From assembly GCF_022662195.1 (NCBI RefSeq), contig NZ_JAKMCS010000003.1:335755-399754 (forward strand): DNA of 64,000 nucleotides, read 5' to 3'. Under the pieces are notes generated by a model, which saw only the letters and a list, made by a program, of their open reading frames with translations, searched no databases and had not been told where the DNA came from. Each line of letters starts with the position of its first letter. The stretch's first letter is position 1. Shown in pieces: positions 51,016 through 64,000 of this stretch. A program made the position numbers and the translations under genes. This DNA comes from Aestuariivivens insulae (lineage in GTDB: Bacteria > Bacteroidota > Bacteroidia > Flavobacteriales > Flavobacteriaceae).

Positions 51016-54000
51016 TTAAAATGATAAGTTCACACCTAAGCTAACACGCTTTGAAACAGGGTATATCGTACCACTAACACCACCAATACCAACTTCTGGA
51101 TCTACACCGGTAAACCCTGTAAAAGTTAGAAGGTTATCTCCAGAAATATAGAGACTAGCGCTGCTTAGCCCTATAGCTTTCACCAAGTCGGGATCTAAAC
51201 TATAGTTAAGTGTTATGTTACGCATTCTTAAGAAACTACCATCTTCCAAATATCTTGAAGACGTTTTGTTGGAAGACCCATCGCCTCCATAATAGGGCAG
51301 CGGGTGTGTTGCATAATCTCCCGGTTGTTGCCAAATACTCCATTCATCTGGTAAAACCATTTGGTTATATGTAGGATAGGCTCCCGACGAGTCGAACAAC
51401 TCCCGAGTGGAATTATATATTTTACCGCCTTTAACAAAAGTGAAATTGGCGTTTAATGACAAGCCTTTATAGCTAAACTTGGTAGTAAACCCTCCAAAAA
51501 AATCAGGGGTAGATGTTCCTACTACTTGTCGTGTCGCTTTTTCAACATCGGAGGTTGTACTTTTTTCACCAGTATTTTCATCAATCACTTCCCAAAGTGG
51601 TTTACCTGTACTAGGATTTACCCCTAACCATTTTCTTAAATACCATGAGTTAGAATCCAATCCTTCGCGTCTTATCTTACTACCAGAAAACTGGTCTTCG
51701 CCTTGATACAATTCTGTGATTTTATTTTTATTGGCACCAATATTGAAACTAACATTCCAATTAAAACCATCAGCATTTTCAAATAGATCTAAATTAGCAA
51801 TGGCCTCTACACCTTCGTTAACTACTGCTCCAACGTTTTGGTATTGATAGCTGTATCCGGCAGTGGCTGGTAAGGATACACGCTGTATAAGATCGGATGT
51901 ATCGCGTTTATAATATTCTAGGGTTAATCCTAACTTGTTAAAGATTCGGGCGTCTATAGCCACATCGGTTTGATAGGACACTTCCCATAATAAGTCGTCA
52001 TTACCAAGCTGTCCAGGCGTAGTGGTTGGTGCAGCATTATACGTTGACAACAAACTGTAATAGGAATATTGTGGATAGTTAAAGGTAGGACGATTTCCCA
52101 CAGAACCATAACTAGCTCTTAATTTTAAGGCATTTACCCATGGCACGTTAAAAAAGTTTTCCTTGTGGATATTCCAACCTCCACTTACGGAGAAAAAGTT
52201 ACCATATTTATTGTTATCCCCAAAGTTTGAAGCGCCATCCCTCCTAATGGAAAACTGAGCCATATAACGATCGTCATATATAAGTTCTGCATTAAACAGG
52301 TACGATTGTAAGGCATAGTCATTTTTGGTCCCTCCTACATTTCCTGGCTCACTGGCATTATCTAAAATTTCTGTTCCTGACACTAAGTTGTACTTTTCGG
52401 CAAAGAAACTCTCATAAACATAATCGTTGTATTCATAAGCTGCCAGTGCATTAACCCTTAAGTTTCCAAAAGTGTTATTATAGCGTATCATTTGATTGGT
52501 AAAACGGGTAATACGCTTGGCATTAGAATTAGACAGTTCCCCATTTTTGGCTTTTCCAGCGTTGGAAAGCGGATCTGTATAAGACATCCCATTGGTCATG
52601 AATAGAGTATAACCATTTGTGGAAATGAATTTTACATTTTTAAACAAGTCTAACTCAAAATCAAAATCGGCAAATAAGTTGAACTCAGAGCCTTTGCTAT
52701 AATTGGTCTGAAGCCCCTCGTAATAGTTAGACTGATCTCTACCATACCATGTAACACCTGGCTCTTGTGGATTCCTTACATTTCCATTTTCATCAAATGG
52801 TTTGTCCCAAGGTAAATTATTATACATTTGATATAATGAATGCTGCTTATTATCTCGATTTGTATAATTTACGGCCAACTTGGGCTTTATGGTTAATTTA
52901 TCCATCACCTTAACCTCATGGTTAACCCTTAAGCTTAGCCTATCGTACTGATAGCCTTTTACGGTTCCGGTCTCATCGTAATAGCCAAGTAGCACAAAAG
53001 TTTTTGAGACATCATTTCCTGTCGATAATGTTAATGAATGATCTTTTATAACACCGGTTTGAGTCCCATTTTTCAACCAGTTATAATCGGTATTTAACAA
53101 CTCTGGTGTGTACCAACTCGGAATGGCATTTTGATTGGCAAACAATCCATAATAATCGTAAAGTTGTTGGGAGTTCATGACCTCAAAGTTGCCTTGATTA
53201 AATATTGAAAACCCTGTTTTACTGGATATGGTCAGTTGTGTTTTTCCTGTTTTCCCTCGTTTGGTGGTCACCACAATTACGCCATTAGAACCTCTAGATC
53301 CATATAACGACGTTGCAGAAGCATCTTTTAACACGCTAATGTTCTCTATTTCGTTAGGATCTAAATTAGGTACCGAATGTACAATAACGCCATCTACAAC
53401 CCATAAAGGATCATTGCTGCTGCTTATTGAAGACACCCCTCTTATACGAATTGTAGGTGAAGCCCCTGGTTGCCCAGACCCTTGAACCACTTGTACCCCC
53501 GAGGCTTTCCCCTGTAGCATGGTTGAAACATTAGGAGCTGTAATATCCTTTAGCTCTTCGGATGTCACTTTGGCTACGGAAGAGGTCACGTCTGATTTCT
53601 TTTTGGCCGTATACCCTACAACAATTATTTCCTGAAGTTCGGTGGTATCTTCTTTTAAAGTTATGGAAATACTTTCACTGTCATCGACCAAAACTTCCTG
53701 AGAAAAATAACCAACGTACGATACTACCAAGATAGCATACTTATTGCTTACTTTAATCGTGAAATTACCATCAAAATCTGTTTGTGTTCCATTAGTGGTC
53801 CCCTTTTCCAGTATGGTTGCTCCTGGCATGGGCTGACCGGATGGTCCTGTAACAACTCCAGAAACTTCTATTTGTTGCGCCTGGTCCAGCAGTGAAGTCT
53901 CTTTTTCCTTTATGAGTATTGCATCATTATCGGTTAACGTTACATCAAGGTTCTTTTGCGACAAACTTTGTTTTAGCAGTTTGTTCACACTTATTGTTCC

Positions 54001-54267
54001 TTTGTTGATTTTAACTTTTGGGAAGTCATTAAAAATTCCTTTTTCATAAAAGAACTTATAATCTGTTTGCTCCATAATCAATTGGAAGACTTCATCAACA
54101 GTTAATACTTTATCCTCCTCAACTTTAACTTTAGAGTTTTGAGAAACTAAATCATTTGGTGCCAGTGAAAAGACAAATGTGCAACATAAGAATATAAATG
54201 TCCTCATAATGATCATTAAAGTCCGTTTTCGTATTTGAAAACAGAGGTTAGTTAACTTAATTTCCAT
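51016..54267 (-). CDS. SusC-like TonB-dependent transducer with STN domain
   Basis: This 1083-residue outer-membrane transporter has an N-terminal signal sequence near residues 17-43. A secretin/TonB STN domain follows (LTVDEVFQLIMEQTDYKFF, KNLDVTLTDNDAILIKE), then a carboxypeptidase-D-like domain (VSGVVTGPSGQPMPGATILE). The plug has IRIRGVSSISSSNDPLWVVD, and the barrel ends LGVNLSF. The STN domain fits contact with the FecR-like protein encoded upstream, so substrate arrival can signal to the ECF sigma factor. The 199-base upstream gap holds no gene. Confidence 0.94.
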   Translation of the reverse strand: MEIKLTNLCFQIRKRTLMIIMRTFIFLCCTFVFSLAPNDLVSQNSKVKVEEDKVLTVDEVFQLIMEQTDYKFFYEKGIFNDFPKVKINKGTISVNKLLKQSLSQKNLDVTLTDNDAILIKEKETSLLDQAQQIEVSGVVTGPSGQPMPGATILEKGTTNGTQTDFDGNFTIKVSNKYAILVVSYVGYFSQEVLVDDSESISITLKEDTTELQEIIVVGYTAKKKSDVTSSVAKVTSEELKDITAPNVSTMLQGKASGVQVVQGSGQPGASPTIRIRGVSSISSSNDPLWVVDGVIVHSVPNLDPNEIENISVLKDASATSLYGSRGSNGVIVVTTKRGKTGKTQLTISSKTGFSIFNQGNFEVMNSQQLYDYYGLFANQNAIPSWYTPELLNTDYNWLKNGTQTGVIKDHSLTLSTGNDVSKTFVLLGYYDETGTVKGYQYDRLSLRVNHEVKVMDKLTIKPKLAVNYTNRDNKQHSLYQMYNNLPWDKPFDENGNVRNPQEPGVTWYGRDQSNYYEGLQTNYSKGSEFNLFADFDFELDLFKNVKFISTNGYTLFMTNGMSYTDPLSNAGKAKNGELSNSNAKRITRFTNQMIRYNNTFGNLRVNALAAYEYNDYVYESFFAEKYNLVSGTEILDNASEPGNVGGTKNDYALQSYLFNAELIYDDRYMAQFSIRRDGASNFGDNNKYGNFFSVSGGWNIHKENFFNVPWVNALKLRASYGSVGNRPTFNYPQYSYYSLLSTYNAAPTTTPGQLGNDDLLWEVSYQTDVAIDARIFNKLGLTLEYYKRDTSDLIQRVSLPATAGYSYQYQNVGAVVNEGVEAIANLDLFENADGFNWNVSFNIGANKNKITELYQGEDQFSGSKIRREGLDSNSWYLRKWLGVNPSTGKPLWEVIDENTGEKSTTSDVEKATRQVVGTSTPDFFGGFTTKFSYKGLSLNANFTFVKGGKIYNSTRELFDSSGAYPTYNQMVLPDEWSIWQQPGDYATHPLPYYGGDGSSNKTSSRYLEDGSFLRMRNITLNYSLDPDLVKAIGLSSASLYISGDNLLTFTGFTGVDPEVGIGGVSGTIYPVSKRVSLGVNLSF

Positions 54268-54466
54268 AAATTTGTTTGTTATTAGTTAGTTAAACATTTT
54301 AATTAATTGATAAAATTTTAGGGGATAGGGTCTTTACTTTGGCGGGTGAAACCTTATCCTTTTTTTTTAGTTCTTCTGTATCATTTATGTCATTAGCATA
54401 TATTTTTTTAATTATTTATTTAAGATTAAGGCTTTTATATTTATATCAAGCGCACAACAGGCGGCA

Positions 54467-55651
54467 TTATTTTAATATTAAGGTTTTATTGTCTATAACA
54501 TAGTCATTTATAGAGGTCGATTTTATTATAGACAAAATATCTTCTATACTTTGTTTTTTATCTAAAACTCCAACAAATTCAACGGATTCTAAATTTTTAT
54601 TTTCAAAAACCACATCAACATCATACCATCTGGATATCACTTTCATGATATCTTTTAAAGGCATGTCTATAAAACTAAATATGCCTTCTTTCCATGACAC
54701 TTCTTTTTTAACGTTAACTTTCGCAACTGTAAAGCTATTGGTCTCTATATTTAAATTGTATTGTTCGCTGGGCGTTAAGCTTTGTTTTGAAGTACCGTTA
54801 TCCACAACAACTTTTCCCTCTACCAGCGTTGTATAAATGTTAGTCTCATCTTTATAAGCCTTAACATTAAATTCTGTTCCCAAAACCTCTATTTCTTGCG
54901 AACGGTTTACCACTCTAAACTTAGCGCCGTTATGTTTTGTGCTTGGCGAAACATCGAAATAGGCTTCCCCATAAACTAATTCCACTTCACGTGTTTCTCC
55001 TTCAACAAACGCTTTAGGGTATTTTAATTCCGATTCTGAATTTAACCAAACCTGAGTGCCATCGGAAAGTTCTATGAAAAACTGACCTCCCCTAGGTACC
55101 GTTAGATAATTATAGACCGGCGCTTTCTTTTTTTGCTTACTCGCTTCATAAACGATCTTCTCTCCATTACTATTAACATTATTGGCCTTAAAGGTGTTTC
55201 CCTTTTCTAAAGCCACTTTCGATCCGTCTTCGAGTGTCAAGGTTGCCTTATCTGTGCCTGGCTCAATAGGTTTTGTATCAACAATTACCGGAATAACATC
55301 CTGATCAATAGATGCATTGAACAATCTATCCTTAAAAACAAATCCCAAGCCTAATACTATGATTGCCGCAGCAGCATATTTCCAAACATTGGACCATAAT
55401 GGTATTAATTTGTTCTTCGTTTTAACCTTAGACCTTACCCTATCCCAACCTTCTTCAATTTCAAATTTCTCATACTCGGCCAGATTGGATTGATACCAGC
55501 CTTCCGAAATAATTCTGGAATAAATTTGCCGGTTTTCTTCAGACTCCTCTAACCAATCATTAAGTTGCTTTTCAGCATGACTTTCCAAATCGCCATTGAG
55601 CTTTAGGGCGATTAGTTTAGATATTTCTATATATATATTTTCTTGATCCAT
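54467..55651 (-). CDS. FecR-family anti-sigma factor
   Basis: This 394-residue inner-membrane regulator has a cytoplasmic N-terminus and a single transmembrane helix near residues 90-107 (YAAAAIIVLGLGFVF). Its periplasmic FecR domain includes TVPRGGQFFIELSDGTQVWL and VELVYGEAYFDVSPS, and the C-terminal DUF4974-type domain includes FIDMPLKDIMKVISRWYDVD. By family it holds the partner sigma factor and relays a signal from the STN domain of SusC. It is divergent from the sigma gene, with 138 bases between them. Confidence 0.92.
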   Translation of the reverse strand: MDQENIYIEISKLIALKLNGDLESHAEKQLNDWLEESEENRQIYSRIISEGWYQSNLAEYEKFEIEEGWDRVRSKVKTKNKLIPLWSNVWKYAAAAIIVLGLGFVFKDRLFNASIDQDVIPVIVDTKPIEPGTDKATLTLEDGSKVALEKGNTFKANNVNSNGEKIVYEASKQKKKAPVYNYLTVPRGGQFFIELSDGTQVWLNSESELKYPKAFVEGETREVELVYGEAYFDVSPSTKHNGAKFRVVNRSQEIEVLGTEFNVKAYKDETNIYTTLVEGKVVVDNGTSKQSLTPSEQYNLNIETNSFTVAKVNVKKEVSWKEGIFSFIDMPLKDIMKVISRWYDVDVVFENKNLESVEFVGVLDKKQSIEDILSIIKSTSINDYVIDNKTLILK

Positions 55652-55789
55652 TTATTTTATAGATTACCATCTACCCTTTAATACAATTCAAAACAGAAAC
55701 ATGGGTATTCCGATTCAAAAAAAAATTAAAAAACTTTAAATTTTAGGCAATCTAGTTTCATATATTTACACCAATATGAACTTCCTTTA

Positions 55790-56335
55790 ATGGATTCAAC
55801 TCAAAACATACTTTCTGATATACAAAGCGGTGACAAGAAATCCTTCAAGGTATTTTTTGATGATTATTACCCTATCTTATGTTCCTTTGCCAATAAATAC
55901 CTTAAAAGTGAGGACCAAAGTAAGGATGTAGCCCAGGAAGCACTGATAAAGTTTTGGGAAAAACGTACAGAGTTTAACGATATTCGTGGTGCCAAAGGCT
56001 TTTTATATGTTATTATTAAAAATAACTGTATCAACATACTTAAGAAGTCAAAGCGTAATATTGATTTATCTGCTTTAAAGGAACTACAATCTGAATCGTT
56101 TTTTAAAACTAATTTAATTGACAAAGAAACCTTCAGGATTGTTAGAAATGCCGTTGACAATTTACCTCAAAGGCAAAAGGAAATTCTAGAGCTCTCATTG
56201 AAAGGGCTAAAAAACCCAGAAATTGCTACACAATTAAAGATTTCACCACATACGGTACATACGGCAAAGAAAAATGCCTATAGAAAGCTTAGGGAACTCT
56301 TAAAGGATAATTATTATTTGATACTTTTTATCTAA
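55790..56335 (+). CDS. ECF RNA polymerase sigma factor
   Basis: This 181-residue sigma-70 ECF protein has region 2 in residues of about 15-85 (YYPILCSFANKYL, DQSKDVAQEALIKFWEKR). Region 4 lies in about 120-175 (LPQRQKEILELSLKGLKNPE, with HTH ISPHTVHTAKKNAYRKL). There is no extra domain. It pairs with the divergent FecR gene and should drive the second SusCD locus. Its target promoter cannot be deduced from one window. Confidence 0.93.
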   Translation: MDSTQNILSDIQSGDKKSFKVFFDDYYPILCSFANKYLKSEDQSKDVAQEALIKFWEKRTEFNDIRGAKGFLYVIIKNNCINILKKSKRNIDLSALKELQSESFFKTNLIDKETFRIVRNAVDNLPQRQKEILELSLKGLKNPEIATQLKISPHTVHTAKKNAYRKLRELLKDNYYLILFI

Positions 56336-56439
56336 TACATTTTAAAAAATCATGGTTTCTCAATAAGGCAAGCTTACTCAAACTAATGCATTACTCTTTT
56401 TTGTGATTTTTGATTTATATGTCAATGGCATTTAAAGAC

Positions 56440-56503
56440 AAAAACAAGAAAGGTCCCCAATGTCTTGAAAGCCTTATTATCACTGGTGGAGAAGATCGGG
56501 CTC
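56440..56503. repeat. direct repeat copy 1 containing a tRNA-Ala 3' fragment
   Basis: This 64-base segment matches 56581-56644 at about 55 of 64 positions, with a period of 141 bases. Its right 19 bases (56485-56503), read on the minus strand, are the end of the tRNA-Ala T arm and acceptor strand, ending CTCC A, then CCA. So this partial copy carries an encoded CCA that the intact tRNA gene lacks. Between the copies lies a REP-like CCTTCGATAAACTCAGG. It is probably a remnant of site-specific integration at the tRNA or a local duplication. Confidence 0.8.
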
Positions 56504-56580
56504 CCTTCGATAAACTCAGGATAAACATTTCGGCAGGCTCAATGCATCGCTTCTCGCCCGATCCTAATCGCTTGCTTAAC

Positions 56581-56644
56581 AAAAACAGGAAAGGCTCCCA
56601 ATCTCTTGAAAGCCTTGCTATTGCTAGTGGAGAAGATCGGGCTC
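56581..56644. repeat. direct repeat copy 2 at the tRNA-Ala 3' end
   Basis: This is the second copy of the 64-base repeat. It overlaps the last 17 bases of the intact tRNA-Ala gene (56628-56644) and extends 47 bases beyond its 3' end. Identity between the two copies is perfect over GGAGAAGATCGGGCTC, the tRNA part. Confidence 0.8.
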
Positions 56645-56701
56645 GAACCGACGACCTCTTGACTGCCAGTCAAGCGCTCTAGCCAACTGAGCTACATCCC
56701 C
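56628..56701 (-). tRNA. tRNA-Ala (GGC anticodon)
   Basis: Read on the minus strand, the gene starts GGGGATGTAGCTCAG. The anticodon stem CTTGA / TCAAG encloses the loop CTGGCAG, giving anticodon GGC. The T loop is TTCGAGC. The acceptor stem has G3:U70, the alanine identity pair, with one U:U mismatch at pair 6:67. The discriminator is A at 56628. CCA is not encoded. An ORF-like reading over this gene ending in TASQAL is an artefact of the tRNA sequence. Confidence 0.93.
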
Positions 56702-56944: not shown

Positions 56945-58078
56945 ATGAAAACCGTTAAGCTAAGCCCTTTATTCCATAAAAACGAACAGCAAATTGCCAT
57001 ATCCTTTGGCTATGATGAAAACATTAAACAACATTTAAAGCAATTGCTTGAGGTTAAATGGAGCAAATCACACAAGACCTTTTACATTAAACATTCGCCA
57101 GAAAACAAAAGGATTGTTTACGCCCATTTGCGCCGTATTAATTGTAAGGTGGACTACAGTGCGCTAAAAGCCAAAAAGCCAACGACCCAAAAAACCTTGA
57201 GCATCACCCTACCGCGTTTGGACTATGCCCAAAAAGAAGATTTAAAAAAATTCAAAAAATGGCTACAGCAGCAACGGTTAAGCAACAATACGGTTAATAC
57301 CTATGTTGAAGTGACCACATTTTTTAAACGCTACTCACACCTAAAAAACACTAATAACTATACCAAACGGCTTATCGAATCTTTTAACTACGACTTTATC
57401 GTAAGGGCCGACAAGTCCATATCCTATCAAAACCAATGTATTAACGGTATTAAAAAATATCTGGACTATAAAGGCATAGAAGTAGAGGCCTTAGCTTTAA
57501 AACGTCCAAAAAAAGAAAAGAAACTCCCTGTTGTTTTAAGCATAGATGAGGTTACATCCCTTTTTGATGCCGTCAATAACCTAAAGCACAAAACATTATT
57601 GTGCCTTCTTTACTCTGGTGGCCTAAGGATTGGCGAGGCCTTAAATTTAAAAGCAAGTGATATAGACAGCAAACGCATGCTTATCCATATTAAAGGAGCA
57701 AAAGGCAAGAAAGACAGATATACCTTATTGTCTGAAACCTTCTTAACCTTACTTAGAAACTATTACAAGCTGTACAGGCCCAAGACCTATTTATTTGAAG
57801 GCCAAAAAGGGAAACCATACAGTTGTACCAGTGCGCAAAAGGTTTTAAGGCAGGCCGTAAAAAAGGCAGGGCTAAAAAAGCATATTACCCTGCATACCCT
57901 TAGGCATAGTTTTGCAACCCACTTACTGGAAAACGGGACGGACATAAGATATATCCAAGAACTCTTGGGACATAGCAGCCCAAAAACTACAATGATTTAC
58001 ACCCATGTAAGCGAACTGAGCATAAAAAAAATAAAAAATCCATTTGATAATCTGCAAATGATTACTAAATTGCTTTAA
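56945..58078 (+). CDS. tyrosine recombinase of the cassette array
   Basis: This 377-residue tyrosine site-specific recombinase probably inserts and excises the downstream cassettes. Residues 1-90 form an extra N-terminal domain (PLFHKNEQQIAISFGYDEN). Residues of about 95-180 are the SAM-like core-binding domain. Residues 190-377 are catalytic: Arg228 in LLYSGGLRIGEAL, a Lys in KGKKDR (253-258), His317 and Arg320 in HTLRHSFATH, His343 in LLGHSS, and the nucleophile Tyr352 in MIYTHV. It lacks the segment that integron IntI proteins carry between the Lys and HxxR motifs. A TATATTTG -7 box lies at 56888-56895. It points towards the cassettes, unlike most integrons. Confidence 0.9.
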   Translation: MKTVKLSPLFHKNEQQIAISFGYDENIKQHLKQLLEVKWSKSHKTFYIKHSPENKRIVYAHLRRINCKVDYSALKAKKPTTQKTLSITLPRLDYAQKEDLKKFKKWLQQQRLSNNTVNTYVEVTTFFKRYSHLKNTNNYTKRLIESFNYDFIVRADKSISYQNQCINGIKKYLDYKGIEVEALALKRPKKEKKLPVVLSIDEVTSLFDAVNNLKHKTLLCLLYSGGLRIGEALNLKASDIDSKRMLIHIKGAKGKKDRYTLLSETFLTLLRNYYKLYRPKTYLFEGQKGKPYSCTSAQKVLRQAVKKAGLKKHITLHTLRHSFATHLLENGTDIRYIQELLGHSSPKTTMIYTHVSELSIKKIKNPFDNLQMITKLL

Positions 58079-58203
58079 ATAAGAATTTTCATCTTTACCA
58101 TGTTGGAAACTAAAACATATATACACCACCAAAACTTCCGCATAGCCAACCTAATTGGGCGGATATAAAGGTGAAAATTCCGCATATAAACAAGTTACCA
58201 AAC
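58079..58203 (+). other. attI-like insertion site
   Basis: This non-coding stretch lies between the recombinase stop and the first cassette. The cassette boundary is GTTACCAAAC at 58194-58203, preceded by CCGCATATAAACAA. That resembles the right arms of the attC-like repeats (CATACACAAACAC, CATATACATAAAC). An imperfect direct repeat, AAAACTTCCGCATA (58131) and AAAATTCCGCATA (58174), could be extra recombinase-binding sites, like the direct repeats of integron attI. It lacks the central hairpin of the other repeats. Confidence 0.65.
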
Positions 58204-58218
58204 AGTTGAAGAAACTCA

Positions 58219-58665
58219 ATGAGAACCATTATTTGCATCATATTATTTGCATTTTTATTGCCATTTGAGCAAAATAAAACAACTGACTTAATTGGAGTTT
58301 ATTACTCGGTTGACAATGAATTCGAAAGATGGTCGATAATGGAATTACGAGAAAACGGAATTTTTAATTATAAATACGGGTTGAGTGCTTGTCAATCGGA
58401 AATCACTGGAACTTATTCGGTAGATAAAAATCGTATTCGATTTAGAAATGACAGAGAATTTACCAAAGAATATTTAGAAAAGGAAAGGGATTCCTTAGAT
58501 TCAAATATTCCTGGAATCGGAATTCCAATAATCCCTGATTTAAGTCTAACGGAATGGAAAATAAAAAGGAACGCAATTAAACCGATTTCGGAAATTGATT
58601 GTGGTTGTATAACTGAAAAAGGAAAACACAAAAAAAAGATAAAACCGTTTGGTAACAATGTATAA
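58219..58665 (+). CDS. cassette 1: exported protein of unknown function
   Basis: This 148-residue protein has a signal peptide (MRTIICIILFAFLLPFEQN). The body is a short beta-rich domain (LIGVYYSVDNEFERWSIMEL, GTYSVDKNRIRFRND), somewhat like lipocalin-type or copper-resistance small domains, though I do not recognise the family. The last codons and the stop lie inside the attC-like repeat (KPFGNNV), so the recombination site contributes the C-terminus. The leader from the cassette boundary is 25 bases. Confidence 0.7.
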   Translation: MRTIICIILFAFLLPFEQNKTTDLIGVYYSVDNEFERWSIMELRENGIFNYKYGLSACQSEITGTYSVDKNRIRFRNDREFTKEYLEKERDSLDSNIPGIGIPIIPDLSLTEWKIKRNAIKPISEIDCGCITEKGKHKKKIKPFGNNV

Positions 58666-58782
58666 CCGCAATTACGGCGGATTCGACTACGTCCGAATCC
58701 ACTCGGAATTGCTAAAGCTTGTGCCAAACCGAATATTAACGCATATTAACCCGTAACTGACGGTTATACGAACCGTTGTGCG
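58647..58782 (+). repeat. attC-like site A (end of cassette 1)
   Basis: The left end GTTTGGTAAC (58647-58656) is the exact reverse complement of the first bases of cassette 1 (GTTACCAAAC, 58194). Arms TATAACCG (58661-58668) and CGGTTATA (58761-58768) pair. A central hairpin GGATTCG / CGAATCC lies at 58679-58700. The right end GTTGTGCG (58775) belongs to cassette 2. Confidence 0.85.
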
Positions 58783-58798
58783 TCATTAGAGAAAACCA

Positions 58799-59320
58799 AT
58801 GAATACGATAAAAGTTGAAATAGATAAAAGCGAATATGGAGCTGATGATTTTGCAAATTATCGGATTGATAGCTTTTGGCTTGACGAAAAACTTGAGGAA
58901 TTATATCCTGACAAATTTTATGGAGGAACAATTCCTACTCTACTTTTTGGAATGGAAATACCAAAAGAGAAAGAAGTTGTCCAAAAAAGAATCCTGCCGA
59001 ATGAAAATGAAACCACAATTTGTCCAATATTGATGTGTCCTGATGACTGTGATTTTTCTTGCACATTAATTGTAGCCGAAATACAAAATTGCGGAGATAT
59101 TATTAAATGGAATAAAATCGGACTTGATAAAACAACTGATTTTGAGCCTGAAAAAGTAGGTTTTAAAGTTGAGTGGTTTAAGAAAATGACTAAACTCGAA
59201 TTCACAAAAGCCGACTACTTGAAAATGCTGTCGGACTTTGAAAAGTATTATAAATTAGATAAAGTAGAATGGGAAAAGCGAAATGCTGAATTTCAAAAGA
59301 ACTTAACAAATAAAAAATAA
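58799..59320 (+). CDS. cassette 2: hypothetical cytoplasmic protein
   Basis: This is a 173-residue soluble protein with no signal peptide. Four cysteines cluster in CPILMCPDDCDFSC near residue 85, which could bind metal. The C-terminus is a lysine-rich helix. I do not recognise the family. The start is 24 bases from the cassette boundary and the stop is 4 bases before the attC-like site, so the gene fills its cassette. Confidence 0.65.
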   Translation: MNTIKVEIDKSEYGADDFANYRIDSFWLDEKLEELYPDKFYGGTIPTLLFGMEIPKEKEVVQKRILPNENETTICPILMCPDDCDFSCTLIVAEIQNCGDIIKWNKIGLDKTTDFEPEKVGFKVEWFKKMTKLEFTKADYLKMLSDFEKYYKLDKVEWEKRNAEFQKNLTNKK

Positions 59321-59324
59321 CGAA

Positions 59325-59459
59325 CGCACAACAATGGCTATAAGTAATTGCTTGTTTTCGCTTACTTCTGAAAATCCTTGCGGATTTTCAGTTTGGTGTG
59401 TACTTGCAAAGTTTAGTGCTAAACCACGCAACTACTCATAGCCGAGACGTTGTAACACA
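59325..59459 (+). repeat. attC-like site B (end of cassette 2)
   Basis: The left end CGCACAAC (59325-59332) is the reverse complement of the first bases of cassette 2 (GTTGTGCG, 58775). Arms GGCTAT (59336-59341) and ATAGCC (59438-59443) pair. The central hairpin is GAAAATCC / GGATTTTC (59370-59389) with loop TTGC. The right end GTTGTAACACA (59449) starts cassette 3. The interior is nearly identical to site E. Confidence 0.88.
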
Positions 59460-59474
59460 TTTGACCCAAACTAA

Positions 59475-59843
59475 ATGGAAAAAATCAGATTTAAAGAAAA
59501 AGCCTTTGAATATGCATTAATCGGATATATTATTCTAAAATTGTTATGGAATATTTACGGACTGACTACTGGAATAACCAAAGCATTAATTCCAATAACA
59601 CTACAAGGAATTTTATTGTATTTGATTTTCTCCAAGCATAAATATGCCAAAATCGGAATTAAAATTTGGGCTATTATTCTGATTTTAAGCTACGGACTTT
59701 CATTCTTAGCAAAAATTGTAAAAATCATTCTGGGTGATGAGATAGAAACAACCGTATTATTGAACAAAGCTTTACTTCTGACCATTGGAATTTTGATTTA
59801 TGTTTTTAATGAAAAATATGTAGAGATAATAAAAACTGAATAA
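59475..59843 (+). CDS. cassette 3: small membrane protein
   Basis: This 122-residue protein has about four hydrophobic helices (ALIGYIILKLLWNIYGL, ALIPITLQGILLYLIF, IGIKIWAIILILSYGLSFL, KALLLTIGILIYVF) joined by short loops. No functional motif is recognised. It starts 26 bases into the cassette and ends 8 bases before the attC-like site. Confidence 0.7.
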   Translation: MEKIRFKEKAFEYALIGYIILKLLWNIYGLTTGITKALIPITLQGILLYLIFSKHKYAKIGIKIWAIILILSYGLSFLAKIVKIILGDEIETTVLLNKALLLTIGILIYVFNEKYVEIIKTE

Positions 59844-59851
59844 AAAAAAAC

Positions 59852-59985
59852 GTGTTACAACAATGGCTAAAGTTTATTGCTTCTGATTTTCCTTCGGAAA
59901 ATTTTCGCGCTAAACTTTGTAAGGCTCTTTTTACTATCTTAGTCTCCAACTAACGCAACAAACCTTAGCCTAAACGTTGTAAACA
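59852..59985 (+). repeat. attC-like site C (end of cassette 3)
   Basis: The left end TGTTACAAC (59853-59861) is the reverse complement of the start of cassette 3 (GTTGTAACA, 59449). Arms GGCTAA (59865-59870) and TTAGCC (59965-59970) pair. The central hairpin is ATTTTCC / GGAAAAT (59886-59902) with loop TTC. The right end GTTGTAAACA (59976) starts cassette 4. Confidence 0.85.
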
Positions 59986-59999
59986 ATTTGAGAAACAGT

Positions 60000-60410
60000 A
60001 TGAAACCAATATATTTCTTCCTTTTTATTCTGACATTTTGTTGTAATAAAGGAAAAACAATCCCTGAAGATTATAGGAATAATTGGGCTTTGTATTACAT
60101 CAAAATAGATGAGAGTAATATTTTAGATAACATTTCTAACAAAGGATTTATTACGAACTTAATGGTTGTAAATAAATTCAACAAATTGTACATTGATAAC
60201 CATAATAAAAATATTAAGATTTCTGCTGACATAACTATCTTAGAAAAAAATAACGATACAGTAGCCACAATCACCAATTCTTCTGACAAAAGATTAAATG
60301 GTGTATATGAAGTGAATTTAAAAAAAGTAACAAATGGTAAGTTTCATACCCTGCATCTGAATTTAAAATCTGACCGATTAGAGTTATATGCTGAGAAAAG
60401 AACCAATTAA
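60000..60410 (+). CDS. cassette 4: lipoprotein of unknown function
   Basis: This 136-residue protein has a lipoprotein signal (MKPIYFFLFILTFCCNKGK) with the acylated Cys near residue 14 or 15. The body is a beta-rich domain (LYIDNHNKNIKISADITILE) of unknown family. I chose the ATG at 60000, since the in-frame TTG at 59988 is too close to the cassette boundary. It is followed by 54 non-coding bases before the attC-like site. Confidence 0.65.
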   Translation: MKPIYFFLFILTFCCNKGKTIPEDYRNNWALYYIKIDESNILDNISNKGFITNLMVVNKFNKLYIDNHNKNIKISADITILEKNNDTVATITNSSDKRLNGVYEVNLKKVTNGKFHTLHLNLKSDRLELYAEKRTN

Positions 60411-60464
60411 ATTTATGATAAATAGAAAACATTAATCGGACAAAACTGAATTGAATAAAAAAAC

Positions 60465-60603
60465 TGTTTACAACATTGTATATAAAAAATTGCTAGTTTT
60501 AGCTAAACCAATGTTAGTTGCTCTTTTGCTAGCTTCTGATTTTCCTTCGGAAAATCCTCGCTCGCAAGCACGCAACTTTTCATATACATAAACGTTGTAG
60601 TGC
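60465..60603 (+). repeat. attC-like site D (end of cassette 4)
   Basis: The left end TGTTTACAAC (60465-60474) is the reverse complement of the start of cassette 4 (GTTGTAAACA, 59976). Arms TGTATAT (60477-60483) and ATATACA (60582-60588) pair. The central hairpin is GATTTTCC / GGAAAATC (60538-60556) with loop TTC. The right end GTTGTAGTGC (60594) starts cassette 5. Confidence 0.88.
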
Positions 60604-60622
60604 ATTTAAGAAAACCGAAATT

Positions 60623-61036
60623 ATGACAAGAGACGAAGCCCAAGATGCGTGGGAAAAAATAGTTGAAATTGGATTTACTAATTATGAAAAATTGACTCGT
60701 GAACAACGTGTTTGGTTTAACATTGAGCCTTTAACAACTGGCGGATTATGGGACCATTATATGAATTATGGTGCGGACAAAAACGCAGATACAATTGCGG
60801 ATTTAGAATATCTGAATTTCAATTCGGTAGCCAATCAATTACGTGAATTCAATAAAACCTTTTTACCAAACGGAGTTCCTGAAGGACCAGACGCTCGACA
60901 AGAGGAATTTGACAAGTATGATGAAGACGAATTTGAAGATTACATTGAGGAAATGGACAATAAATTTTGGGAAGTATCAGATAAATTGGAAAACGCTCTA
61001 CTGGAACATATAAATAACAGCGGAATTGGAAAATAA
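60623..61036 (+). CDS. cassette 5a: DMP19/DUF4375-like protein
   Basis: This is a 137-residue, very acidic protein. Its layout resembles the DMP19/DUF4375 family (NYEKLTREQRVWFNIEPLTT, GLWDHYMNYGADKNADTIA, TFLPNGVPEGPDARQEEF, LENALLEHI), whose named member is a DNA-mimic protein. The family match is from memory of motif order, not a search. It shares cassette 5 with the next gene, 10 bases downstream. Confidence 0.6.
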   Translation: MTRDEAQDAWEKIVEIGFTNYEKLTREQRVWFNIEPLTTGGLWDHYMNYGADKNADTIADLEYLNFNSVANQLREFNKTFLPNGVPEGPDARQEEFDKYDEDEFEDYIEEMDNKFWEVSDKLENALLEHINNSGIGK

Positions 61037-61046
61037 AAACCTTTAA

Positions 61047-61460
61047 ATGGATTTAAAACCTGGAAAATTGATTCTCTATTTTGGGCTGTTTTGCTTCGCA
61101 ATTTCCCTCATATTAATCTACGTTCTATTTTTTGTACTTAAGGAATATGAAAATGGCGGACTTTTGAGTGTTCTTGCAATGTTTATCGGATTTTCATCAA
61201 TCGGATTTTACCTAACATTACATTATTTAAAGTATAGAATTGTAATCGGTGATAAATCAATGACTATTAAGAACGAGATTGGACAGAAAAAAGAAATTTA
61301 TTGGAATGACATTGAAAAAGTTGATTACAATAAAACCTTTAACATGATTGTAATTCGGAGTAACCAAAAGAAAAAATGGATTAGTCCGATTTATGGACAT
61401 TTCATTGATTTTATAGAACCAGAAAAATACACCGAAAATCTAAAAAAAATAATTAATTAA
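61047..61460 (+). CDS. cassette 5b: two-helix membrane protein with PH-like domain
   Basis: This 137-residue protein has two transmembrane helices (residues of about 8-32 and 38-58). A C-terminal beta-rich domain (YRIVIGDKSMTIKNEIGQKK, IYWNDIEKVDYNKTFNMIVI) resembles bacterial PH-like domains. It is the second gene of the only two-gene cassette seen. Its stop is 3 bases before the attC-like site. The function is unknown. Confidence 0.65.
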   Translation: MDLKPGKLILYFGLFCFAISLILIYVLFFVLKEYENGGLLSVLAMFIGFSSIGFYLTLHYLKYRIVIGDKSMTIKNEIGQKKEIYWNDIEKVDYNKTFNMIVIRSNQKKKWISPIYGHFIDFIEPEKYTENLKKIIN

Positions 61461-61463
61461 AAA

Positions 61464-61600
61464 CGCACTACAACATTGGCTATAAGTAATTGCTTGTTCT
61501 CGCCTACTTCTGAAAATCCTCGCGGATTTTCAGTTTGGTGTGTACTTGCAAGGTTAAGTGCTAACCCACGCAACTACTCATAGCCGAGACGTTGGTAACA
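61464..61600 (+). repeat. attC-like site E (end of cassette 5)
   Basis: The left end GCACTACAAC (61465-61474) is the reverse complement of the start of cassette 5 (GTTGTAGTGC, 60594). Arms GGCTAT (61478-61483) and ATAGCC (61580-61585) pair. The central hairpin is GAAAATCC / GGATTTTC (61512-61531) with loop TCGC. The right end GTTGGTAACA (61591) starts cassette 6. The interior is nearly identical to site B although the outer ends differ. Confidence 0.88.
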
Positions 61601-61626
61601 ATTTGAGCTGACATCTTAACTAATCA

Positions 61627-62250
61627 ATGAAATACTATTTATCTTCTTACAAATTTGGCGAAAAAGTTGAAAAACTGAAAGACTTACTTCCTCAAGGTGC
61701 AAAAATTGGTCATATAAATAATTCTAAAGATTGGACAACTGCTAATCCAGAAATTAGGGATGACCATTTAAAAGAAGAAATGGAATTTATGGACAGTTTA
61801 GGTTTTATTAGTGAACATTTGGACTTAAAAAATTATTTTGGGAAAGAGAATAAATTAAGAAATAAAATTGCTTCACTAAATGGAATTTGGATTAGTGGCG
61901 GAAACACTTTCGTTTTAAGACAGGCAATGAAATTAAGTGGATTTGACAATATTTTTAAAGAATTACAGAAACGAAGCGACTTTTTTTATGGAGGCTATAG
62001 TGCTGGAGTATGTATTCTTTCGGACTCTTTAAAATATATTCAATTTGTGGATAATCCTAATGATTTTCCTTATCAAGAAATTAGCGAAACTATTTGGGAC
62101 GGACTAAATCTATTCAACTATGGCATATTACCTCATTATGATTCTAACCATCCTGAATCGGAGGAAATTGGAAGAGAAGTTAAAAGATGTATAGATAATA
62201 AATGGCTTTTTAAAGCATTGAGAGATGGAGAGGTCTTAATAATTGAATAA
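61627..62250 (+). CDS. cassette 6: peptidase E-like (S51) protein
   Basis: This 207-residue protein resembles peptidase E/cyanophycinase-type serine peptidases of the class I amidotransferase fold. The nucleophile serine lies in FYGGYSAGVCILSDSL near residue 125. The preceding block WISGGNTFVLRQAMKLSG is the typical GGN loop. LPHYDSNHPES near residue 178 would hold the His. The typical substrate of the family is Asp-X dipeptides. Start and stop fill the cassette, and the stop is 5 bases before the attC-like site. Confidence 0.75.
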   Translation: MKYYLSSYKFGEKVEKLKDLLPQGAKIGHINNSKDWTTANPEIRDDHLKEEMEFMDSLGFISEHLDLKNYFGKENKLRNKIASLNGIWISGGNTFVLRQAMKLSGFDNIFKELQKRSDFFYGGYSAGVCILSDSLKYIQFVDNPNDFPYQEISETIWDGLNLFNYGILPHYDSNHPESEEIGREVKRCIDNKWLFKALRDGEVLIIE

Positions 62251-62255
62251 AAAAC

Positions 62256-62393
62256 TGTTACCAACAAAGTATAAAAATAATGCGTAATTTAGTACAATAT
62301 CAAAGGTTAGTGCGTTTTTGGTCACTCTGATTTTCCTGCGGAAAACCCTCTGACTCAACACCGCACTATTCTTATACGAAACGTTGGCAAACA
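62256..62393 (+). repeat. attC-like site F (end of cassette 6)
   Basis: The left end TGTTACCAAC (62256-62265) is the reverse complement of the start of cassette 6 (GTTGGTAACA, 61591). Arms GTATA (62269-62273) and TATAC (62373-62377) pair. The central hairpin is TTTTCC / GGAAAA (62331-62345) with loop TGC. The right end GTTGGCAAACA (62383) starts cassette 7. Confidence 0.85.
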
Positions 62394-62396
62394 TTT

Positions 62397-63260
62397 ATGA
62401 ACGAACAACAAAGAACAAGCATAGAAGCCTTAATATTAGTTAATGACTTGTCTTTGTCAAATCAAAAAGCAATTCTTACTGAATTAAATTCTCTTCTGAT
62501 AGAATGTACTCAAGATTTATATGATAATGGAAAAAAATTTGAGGATGCTGGACTTTTTGAAAAATTGCTATTTCAAATAATATTTCATAATGAAACACTT
62601 TTAACCCTTACAAGTGGGAAATTAATTGAAATTCGGGATAAGCAACTAAAAATAAATGACCTAACAGCTGTTTACTCTATTGCAAGGCTTCAAATAGAAA
62701 CATTCATAAATTTATCTTACATATTTTTTGTCGACTCTGAATATTCCAAAGAAATAAGAGCATATGTTTATAAAATACAGGGATTGAGGAAACAAATTGA
62801 GCTGACTAAAAAGCATCCAAAGGATTTTGAACCGATTAAAAAAATGAGGAATGAACTGGCTGAAGAATTAAGGAAAATCAGAAAGTTGGATGAATTCAAA
62901 AGATTACCTTTTTCTCAGAGAAAAAGATTTATAAATCCATCATATGCAAGATTAATTAAATTGGACGAAATATATCCATTAATAAAAATTGGTAACATAT
63001 CAAGAACTCATTCTTTGTATTCAAATCATATTCACTCGGAATATATAAGCATTCGTCAATTAAAATCTGCGGTAAATGATAGTTCTGAATACGAAAGTTC
63101 ATTTTCTACTGTGACTTTATTGTGCTCAAGAATTACATCTTTGGTTATCACCAATGTGGTTGAACAATATGAATTAAAAAATTATTCTTACTCTAAAGCA
63201 CCTTTAAAGCTGAAAAAAGTAATTGAATCAATAAATAAATTGTCAAGTGAATTAAAATAA
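62397..63260 (+). CDS. cassette 7: helical protein, DUF5677-like
   Basis: This 287-residue protein appears to be nearly all helical. The segment YSIARLQIETFINLSYIFFV near residue 100 and SRTHSLYSNHIHSEYISIRQ near residue 205 recall DUF5677-type proteins. That match is tentative. There is no signal peptide. The start codon lies only 14 bases from the cassette boundary, the shortest leader in the array. The stop is 4 bases before the attC-like site. Confidence 0.6.
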   Translation: MNEQQRTSIEALILVNDLSLSNQKAILTELNSLLIECTQDLYDNGKKFEDAGLFEKLLFQIIFHNETLLTLTSGKLIEIRDKQLKINDLTAVYSIARLQIETFINLSYIFFVDSEYSKEIRAYVYKIQGLRKQIELTKKHPKDFEPIKKMRNELAEELRKIRKLDEFKRLPFSQRKRFINPSYARLIKLDEIYPLIKIGNISRTHSLYSNHIHSEYISIRQLKSAVNDSSEYESSFSTVTLLCSRITSLVITNVVEQYELKNYSYSKAPLKLKKVIESINKLSSELK

Positions 63261-63264
63261 ACGA

Positions 63265-63401
63265 TTTGCCAACACCGTGTATAATTCATTGCTAGTACAG
63301 GCTTACTTACGAAAATCCTCGCGGATTTTCTATTCGGTTTGTATTTGCTAAATTAGTTGCTGAAATACGCAACGAAATCATACACAAACACGTTGGCAAT
63401 A
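63265..63401 (+). repeat. attC-like site G (end of cassette 7)
   Basis: The left end TTTGCCAAC (63265-63273) is the reverse complement of the start of cassette 7 (GTTGGCAAA, 62383). Arms GTGTAT (63277-63282) and ATACAC (63380-63385) pair. The central hairpin is GAAAATCC / GGATTTTC (63311-63330) with loop TCGC. The right end GTTGGCAATA (63392) starts cassette 8. Confidence 0.85.
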
Positions 63402-63412
63402 ATTATGTCTAA

Positions 63413-63907
63413 ATGAAAAACTTTCTGATTTTATTAATGTTTTTTACTTTCAACAAACTGATTTCGCAAGAAATAGTTGGAATGAAAGAAGTTTACATTG
63501 ACAATAATTTAGTTTATAAAAGTTCAAATGACGAACTCTTAACTGGTATTGCTCAAAGCAAACGGAAAAATGGACATTTAGTTTATGAAGAGGAATACAA
63601 AAATGGAGTTATTCTGTCAAGTAATTTATATTACAATGGAAAAGAAATAAGAGTTTCAAATAAAACAATATACAATCCGAATAAACCATTAGTTCTTTCA
63701 AAAGAAATTAAATACCATCTGAATGGTGAAGTTTTTGAAACTATAACTTATAATGACAACGGAATAAAAATCCTTGTTGAACAATTTAAAAATGGAAAGC
63801 TAACGTATAGTTGTCAATATTTAGGAAAAAAGAAAAACGGACTCGAATTGGGATATGGAGAAAGCGGAGAAAATGGACTTGCAACAAAAAAATGGACTTT
63901 AAGTTGA
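63413..63907 (+). CDS. cassette 8: exported MORN-like repeat protein, probably truncated
   Basis: This 164-residue protein has a signal peptide (MKNFLILLMFFTFNKLISQ). The body has MORN/toxin-antitoxin-wing-like repeats (KNGHLVYEEEYKNGVILSSN, LNGEVFETITYNDNGIKI, FKNGKLTYSCQYLGKKKNGL). The stop lies 4 bases before the end of the IS3-type transposase gene on the other strand, and no attC-like site follows. The natural C-terminus was therefore probably cut off by the insertion. Confidence 0.6.
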   Translation: MKNFLILLMFFTFNKLISQEIVGMKEVYIDNNLVYKSSNDELLTGIAQSKRKNGHLVYEEEYKNGVILSSNLYYNGKEIRVSNKTIYNPNKPLVLSKEIKYHLNGEVFETITYNDNGIKILVEQFKNGKLTYSCQYLGKKKNGLELGYGESGENGLATKKWTLS

Positions 63908-63911
63908 ATGA

Positions 63912-64000
63912 CTAAGCTGCCTGTTTCTGGTTATACATATCTAATTCAAATTCTCTTATAGTTTTATTTCCTAAAAAGGAATGCCTTCTTTTATTATTGT
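63912..64000 (-). CDS. IS3-family transposase C-terminus (partial)
   Basis: The minus strand reads NNKRRHSFLGNKTIREFEL and then DMYNQKQAA before a TAG at 63912-63914. The NxxRxHSxLG block is the end of the DDE catalytic domain of IS3-family OrfB proteins. The rest lies outside the window. The IS end should be near 63905, within or right after the cassette 8 gene. The exact terminal inverted repeat cannot be fixed from one end. Confidence 0.8.
   Translation of the reverse strand, partial: NNKRRHSFLGNKTIREFELDMYNQKQAA

Follow-up and report, generated by a model that had tools for sequence, protein, structure and literature searches.

In a row of small gene cassettes of the flavobacterium Aestuariivivens insulae, each complete cassette ends in a folded site, and the row stands behind a gene for a tyrosine recombinase which lacks the insert of the integron integrase IntI. 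Judged from its sequence, this array very probably works like an integron. By the IntI test the system lies outside the canonical integron family, yet it is probably integron-like in its working. The array was found in a window of 64,000 bases (NCBI RefSeq assembly GCF_022662195.1, contig NZ_JAKMCS010000003.1, positions 335,755 to 399,754), which forms the end of a 399,754-base contig in a draft genome of 4.23 Mb and 33 contigs. Coordinates refer to the window unless another contig or locus is named.

An earlier note, made from the letters of the window alone, had described a tyrosine recombinase followed by at least eight small co-directional genes, each with a folded repeat behind it. The recombinase and the row of genes proved to be right, with nine open reading frames (ORFs) in one direction within eight cassettes. 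Cassette 5 contains two ORFs, and the eighth cassette, whose gene runs into an insertion-sequence-like end at the contig end (base 64000), is without a repeat in the window; seven complete folded sites were found. The site model R1 was built from the first of them. The features are:

56945 to 58078, plus strand: tyrosine recombinase of 377 amino acids (PF00589, 9.3e-43)
58134 to 58196, plus strand: candidate attI, predicted crossover after G58194; the stretch ahead of the cassette 1 start resembles that of other loci
58195 to 58775, plus strand: cassette 1, ORF 58219-58665, ends match at 10/10 positions
58776 to 59449, plus strand: cassette 2, ORF 58799-59320, ends match at 9/10
59450 to 59976, plus strand: cassette 3, ORF 59475-59843, hydrophobic by eye, ends match at 10/10
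59977 to 60594, plus strand: cassette 4, ORF 59988-60410, lipoprotein-like start by eye, ends match at 10/10
60595 to 61591, plus strand: cassette 5, ORFs 60623-61036 (DMP19-like, PF14300) and 61047-61460, ends match at 10/10
61592 to 62383, plus strand: cassette 6, ORF 61627-62250 (peptidase S51, PF03575), ends match at 10/10
62384 to 63392, plus strand: cassette 7, ORF 62397-63260, ends match at 9/10
63393 to 63875, plus strand: cassette 8, taken from the ORF listing and the insertion-sequence-like end that cuts it, own site outside the window
58652 to 58779, minus strand: folded site 1, R1 90.4 bits, bottom strand folds
59328 to 59453, minus strand: folded site 2, R1 match, fold z -4.99
59857 to 59980, minus strand: folded site 3, R1 match, fold z -2.76
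60470 to 60598, minus strand: folded site 4, R1 match, fold z -4.32
61470 to 61595, minus strand: folded site 5, R1 match, fold z -4.62
62261 to 62387, minus strand: folded site 6, R1 match, fold z -2.52, the weakest of the seven
63269 to 63396, minus strand: folded site 7, R1 match, fold z -4.75
63876 to 64000, no strand assigned: terminal part of an insertion-sequence-like element (IS3-like by eye), which recurs at one end of contig C17

The ends of the cassettes follow a rule. Seven cassettes of the window begin, counted from GTT, with ten bases that are the reverse complement of their own last bases before the site, at all ten positions in five cassettes and at nine in two. Among 88 cassettes from the own genome and 14 relatives, start and own end agree at a mean of 6.5 of the 7 variable positions (56 cassettes at 7/7, 24 at 6/7). 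In contrast, the two arms of one and the same site within the array agree at only 2.7 of 7, and 1000 shuffles among the 88 cassettes gave a mean of 2.54 and a highest value of 3.03. This set was obtained after dropping 11 of 123 majority-strand sites that were out of register and all cassettes outside 150-2500 bases. A second set of 81 cassettes from other named loci reached a mean of 5.89 of 7 (66 cassettes at 6 or 7, 15 lower), with shuffles at most 3.15. Here, 134 of 139 matches were entered and 2 of them dropped as out of register; four matches, namely L093 (cut off at the end), the twin on the far side in L102 and weak opposite-strand twins, were not entered. Locus L089 was excluded as a repeat of L075, and no other named locus was repeated from the first set. 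Furthermore, at position 11 an A at the start almost always faces a C at the own end (71/81), which makes a G.T pair on the bottom strand; in the 88-cassette set the agreement returns at positions 12-14 (0.74-0.91). The own-end rule together with the G.T pair at position 11 is expected if a circle is closed at CG^TT, but not if a hairpin was inserted behind a gene.

The crossover point can also be read from cassettes that occur in different places. Among 180 cassettes we looked for pairs whose likeness covers half or more of the shorter cassette, and inspected the ends in eight of them. In six the likeness begins at TT and stops at CG, i.e. at CG^TT. The 500-base flanks have nothing in common on either side in six of the eight pairs, and in the other two the left flank matches over 158 bases, or over 34 and 107 bases. 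Two of the pairs with the CG^TT boundary are whole cassettes shared between genera: a 1137-base cassette on contig C17 is 94.3% identical to one in genome G027, the recombinases of the two being 42% identical, and a cassette of L085 is 94.6% identical to one of L110.

These observations bear directly on the proposal that the repeats are mobile hairpins, similar to miniature inverted-repeat transposable elements (MITEs) or repetitive extragenic palindromic (REP) sequences, which settled behind genes with the recombinase as a bystander. The repeats are indeed similar in size, some are near copies (those at 59328 and 61470 are 91% alike) and lone sites exist elsewhere in the own genome. But mobile hairpins give no reason why the far end of a gene should complement its near end, moved copies are alike over gene and site as one unit, and the sites accompany the recombinase on one side and in one direction. 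The cassette-end rule in both sets and the CG^TT boundaries strongly disfavour this explanation, which we dropped as extremely improbable.

Under the preferred integron-like reading, the recombinase would cut folded single-stranded sites, cassettes would leave as circles and new ones would enter beside the recombinase gene. In the array, the two outer arms of a site come from two different cassettes; once a circle is released, its site would be fully paired again, because the cassette starts with the reverse complement of its own end. Presumably the recombinase encoded here is the acting enzyme, and its substrate would be the bottom strand as single-stranded DNA. The cassettes probably pass through circles, and insertion is expected to take place at attI.

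The folding claimed by the earlier note stands. In 7/7 window sites the bottom strand has a lower energy than the top strand, with z values of -2.5 to -5.0 versus -1.1 to -3.1. The shared structure consists of an outer stem of 6 pairs, unequal spacers (5 and 2 bases are commonest) and an inner stem of 16 pairs, and 97.4% of the cells are paired; this value falls to 32-53% when the partners are slid by one to three columns. As to covariation, 12 of the 22 pairs are changed on both sides, and 0/500 shuffles were as high on any of five measures. In the inner stem of 252 sites, the bottom strand has 639 G.T pairs and 27 A/C mismatches and the top strand 98 and 408, a count that is not independent, because these sites were found with bottom-strand models, while the seven window sites are independent. 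The set of 252 came from 276 matches after removal of 9 minor-strand and 15 out-of-register ones; a site was kept only with GTT and AAC, and the 15 of 267 majority-strand matches dropped lacked GTT/AAC in register.

The own-end rule also permits the search for an integration site. Cassette 1 starts with GTTACCAAAC at 58194, and its own end at 58647 reads as the reverse complement of this start. We sought the start of the first cassette in the same way in 41 loci that have a site within 2500 bases after the recombinase ORF. It was found at 9 or 10 of 10 bases in 38/41 loci versus 41/1632 with the ends of other loci. The start lies 14-138 bases past the recombinase in 32/41 loci, many of which have a common ..TATAAACAAGTT before the cut, and at 442-1640 bases from the recombinase in six; in these a nearer site was probably missed. 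Furthermore, in 17 of 19 pairs of related loci the likeness extends 112-156 bases beyond the recombinase, and in two (L135 with L139, L135 with L133) it ends at the recombinase end. For 2 of the 17, one of the two contigs stops within 140 bases, which leaves 15 informative pairs. In 15/15 of these the likeness passes the recombinase and ends near attI, and among the matches listed only short common stretches, mostly sites, are found beyond it. Between Maribellus sp. CM-23 and M. luteus, for example, the likeness is 97.3% as far as base +112, beyond which the 1.1 kb of M. luteus sequence has nothing in common with CM-23.

It could be argued that the cassettes are real but moved by another recombinase, such as the host XerC/XerD or a sister enzyme. 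Sites do occur without a strong match to the recombinase, and the own genome has 7 further tyrosine recombinase matches. Against this, the attI-like site adjoins this recombinase in the 32 loci mentioned, and the likeness between loci covers recombinase and attI as a unit, which makes another mover very improbable. The integron-like reading with the recombinase at hand is also in line with the distribution of the sites. The recombinase was detected at E 1e-60 or better in 32 of 60 relatives, own genome counted, and at least 4 sites (model R2) in 30/32 genomes with it versus 7/28 without (p 2.7e-8). From the 31 other recombinase-bearing relatives, 14 were taken for regions, picked for long contigs. 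R1 sites stand beside the recombinase in 13 of these 14 regions; the exception, L086, has one weak site with R2. The 80 named loci contain 136 sites: 131 are downstream and in the direction of the recombinase, four are upstream on the opposite strand (L151 and L162) and one is upstream. Sites are seen in 34 of the 46 named loci with at least 1500 bases downstream, and the contigs of the other 34 named loci end before that, perhaps because arrays break assemblies. Variable cassettes between kept sites, which the earlier note had named as support, were found beside the recombinases of related genomes, and the fixed gene order with identical content that it had named as refutation was not seen. 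Its other refuting observation, sites without a recombinase nearby, does occur (the 7/28 genomes above), but sites are much commoner with the recombinase and lie nearly always downstream of it. Among 247 sampled Bacteroidia genomes, 111 have the recombinase at E 1e-60, and at least one site was found in 72/111 genomes with it versus 43/136 without; in this class-wide sample only 14 candidates per genome were scored.

The recombinase itself is distinct from IntI. Its residues R228, K255, H317, R320, H343 and Y352, which we take to be the catalytic ones, are invariant across 30 homologues. The SAM-like domain is preceded by some 95 additional N-terminal residues (56945-57230), which gave no Pfam family at cut-off. 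The top NCBIfam model, NF040815 (site-specific tyrosine recombinase/integron integrase), narrowly misses its cut-off of 220 with 214.9 bits, whereas TIGR02249, the model for integron integrases, stays well below its cut-off of 265 with 192.5 bits. The segment that bears the insert in IntI (residues 260-296) has 37 amino acids here versus 79 in canonical IntI, so that the IntI insert of about 42 residues is absent. The same segment measures 36-38 amino acids in 85/85 rows of the family and 79 in 26/26 canonical IntI rows (6 of 119 proteins, 2 of the family and 4 IntI, were dropped for want of the sought motifs); for two further recombinases of the own genome the lengths are 43 and 45. In a quick tree of 92 of 113 rows (21 thinned), calculated with the insert excluded, the 20 IntI rows form one clade at 100 with the recombinase family outside; the support values come from the Shimodaira-Hasegawa-like approximate likelihood ratio test only. 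The nearest solved structures by sequence are archaeal Xer (4a8e) and XerA (5hxy), followed by IntI4 (2a3v), which aligns as two pieces flanking its insert. Foldseek ranked archaeal Xer/XerA first and IntI4 next for a predicted structure of middling quality (predicted local distance difference test, pLDDT, 77; predicted template modelling score, pTM, 0.48; residues 344-360 below 50), which served the fold ranking only. TIGR02249 is above cut-off in 46 of 148 genomes of the phylum, none of them marked as same family; G146, which is a same-family genome, matches in part at 141 bits. One Zobellia homologue is named Integron-related Integrase in UniRef, therefore an annotator saw a link to integrons; we came across no paper about it.

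The sites deviate from the canonical ones as well. Canonical attC sites carry the R boxes RYYYAAC and GTTRRRY, and their stem has extrahelical bases. Among the 252 sites RYYYAAC is found in 15, GTTRRRY in 11 and both in 1. A home-made scan for canonical attC gave no match anywhere, canonical IntI loci included, and is therefore uninformative. The model R2 run over ten canonical IntI neighbourhoods detected one strong site (in L199) and one weak one, and over 30 shorter canonical IntI loci three matches at E up to 1, of which the single strong one is again the L199 site. Could the system still be an ordinary integron with merely drifted IntI and attC? The same layout, the CG^TT junction and the bottom-strand fold speak for it, and so do the TIGR02249 score and the place of IntI4 directly after the archaeal enzymes in the Foldseek ranking. 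However, the insert is absent from every row of the family and present in every canonical row, the fully supported IntI clade excludes the family, and the R boxes are rare. Insert lengths, tree and R-box counts led us to drop this explanation, which appears very improbable. The earlier statement that the array has the layout of an integron with a recombinase type and a gene direction that are not classical agrees with the missing insert and the co-directional downstream sites. Self-complementary cassette ends, the CG^TT crossover, the attI-like site, the choice of folding strand and the lack of the insert go beyond that note, and the case is stronger than the note had made it.

Several observations weigh against an integron-like system driven by this recombinase. 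First of all, recombination itself is something we infer from sequence, and the strand count over 252 sites has the dependence mentioned above. The 7/28 relatives with at least 4 sites lack a strong recombinase match, in the own genome sites are also found on contigs away from the recombinase, and no site appeared under this model in 12 of the 46 loci whose downstream DNA is long enough. The association is weaker across the class than among relatives, with sites in the 43/136 genomes without the recombinase. In the second set, 15/81 cassettes match at 5 of 7 or fewer positions, possibly because an intervening site was missed. The pairs L082/L125 and L114/L136 are alike in part only, and the boundary is absent (2/8 pairs). 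Moreover, the strong site L199:14147-14274 (genome G124) is situated about 1 kb from a canonical IntI gene; it may have been acquired by a canonical integron system.

On a wider scale, Bacteroidota probably possess a second integron system with a separate recombinase lineage, folded single-stranded sites and no IntI insert, in which the choice of the strand lies in conserved G.T pairs. It would represent the main platform for cassette capture in this phylum and would have been overlooked, because integron search tools demand the IntI domain and canonical attC boxes. The study of Messier and Roy from 2001 is said, by its title, to concern the requirement for the extra IntI domain. According to the accessible parts of the literature, the extra domain separates IntI from other recombinases (PMC9024848, PMC9668308), and folded-site recombination is held to require it (PMC9024848); integron-like action without the insert would make this claimed need testable. 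The parts seen of the respective papers list Bacteroidota among integron-bearing phyla (PMC8618304) and the Bacteroidetes/Chlorobi group as integron-bearing (PMC2426708), give one complete integron found by IntegronFinder 2.0 in Bacteroidetes proper, in Salinibacter ruber (PMC9024848), and report no integrons for a Tenacibaculum genome run through the same program (PMC10013915). The arrays would also reveal an extensive reservoir of mobile genes in this phylum, in contrast to these two results of IntegronFinder 2.0 (PMC9024848, PMC10013915). We found no description of the system in the open-access literature; the search did not extend to preprints and subscription journals.

With regard to gene content, the earlier note had named lipoproteins, membrane proteins, a peptidase E-like enzyme and a DMP19-like protein; Pfam returned the DMP19-like and the peptidase S51 families, and the other 7 of 9 cassette ORFs gave no Pfam family at E 0.001. 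Among the 180 cassettes, the longest ORF is on the cassette strand in 149, and 24 have no ORF of at least 50 amino acids. Since the cassettes include the candidate defence pair PDC-M57A/B, encoded by the 1137-base cassette on C17, and a gene resembling type VI secretion system (T6SS) immunity genes, genes for phage defence and for competition may travel between genera in these arrays. In L084 (genome G017) one cassette is present three times in one array (starts 5467, 6027 and 8138 in cassette direction; 96.8-99.8% alike). This genome is closed, and its sites form two blocks at about 2.215-2.261 Mb and 2.729-2.792 Mb, the second of which adjoins the recombinase.

The array of A. insulae apparently does not end with the window. 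R1 found 36 sites genome-wide: 7 in the window, 18 on C17, all 18 in one direction, 3 each on C28 and C4, 2 elsewhere on C27 and one each on C16, C14 and C32. One side of C17 (20.8 kb) closes with the same insertion-sequence-like end as the window, and a second end is shared by the other side of C17 and the start of C28. The likely contig order is window, C17, C28, so that about 27 sites would belong to one array. Within the C17 part of the array (L069:5377-10483) lie genes for type I restriction (methylase and specificity subunit), for a PtuA-like ATPase and for an HNH protein, and no folded site was found from L069:5278 to L070:1384. Immediately upstream of the recombinase lies a transfer RNA (tRNA) gene, tRNA-Ala (GGC), on the minus strand at 56627-56701, within an imperfect direct repeat (56438-56503 and 56579-56644, 86%); an Rfam scan of the window matched a tRNA only. 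Further upstream, 51016-56335 contains genes that by eye encode a SusC/TonB-type receptor, an anti-sigma factor (FecR-like) and a sigma factor, unrelated to the array.

Integrons are arrays of promoter-poor small cassettes whose attC sites fold on the bottom strand. The system described here shares with canonical integrons one folded site per cassette, complementary cassette ends, the G^TT junction, an integration site adjoining the recombinase gene, the preference for the bottom strand of the folded site (here by computation only) and variable, mostly single-gene cassettes read one way. It differs in the missing IntI insert (37 vs 79 amino acids) and a recombinase outside the IntI clade, in R boxes that are not kept (both in 1/252 sites), and in a longer outer stem, of which about 14 positions would pair in the circle, with a G.T pair at position 11. 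Furthermore, intI usually points away from the cassettes, whereas the recombinase gene here has the same direction as the cassettes (131/136 sites). An exception occurs at L151:363-2084, a Crocinitomicaceae contig with the classical integron layout, sites upstream on the other strand, and a recombinase without insert. Chromosomal integrons of Treponema reportedly have intI in the direction of the cassettes, like the array here, but are said to use a canonical IntI. Archaeal XerA/Xer provide the closest solved structures (4a8e, 5hxy) by sequence and by fold; Xer recombinases act at the double-stranded dif site and are not known to have a cassette array. Finally, the strand-biased circularising integrative elements (SE elements), which in the accessible part of the source are described as 7 kb elements with their own recombinase genes and no cassette array, share with the present system tyrosine recombinases and one-strand circles, the latter being predicted for the present system (PMC9345347).

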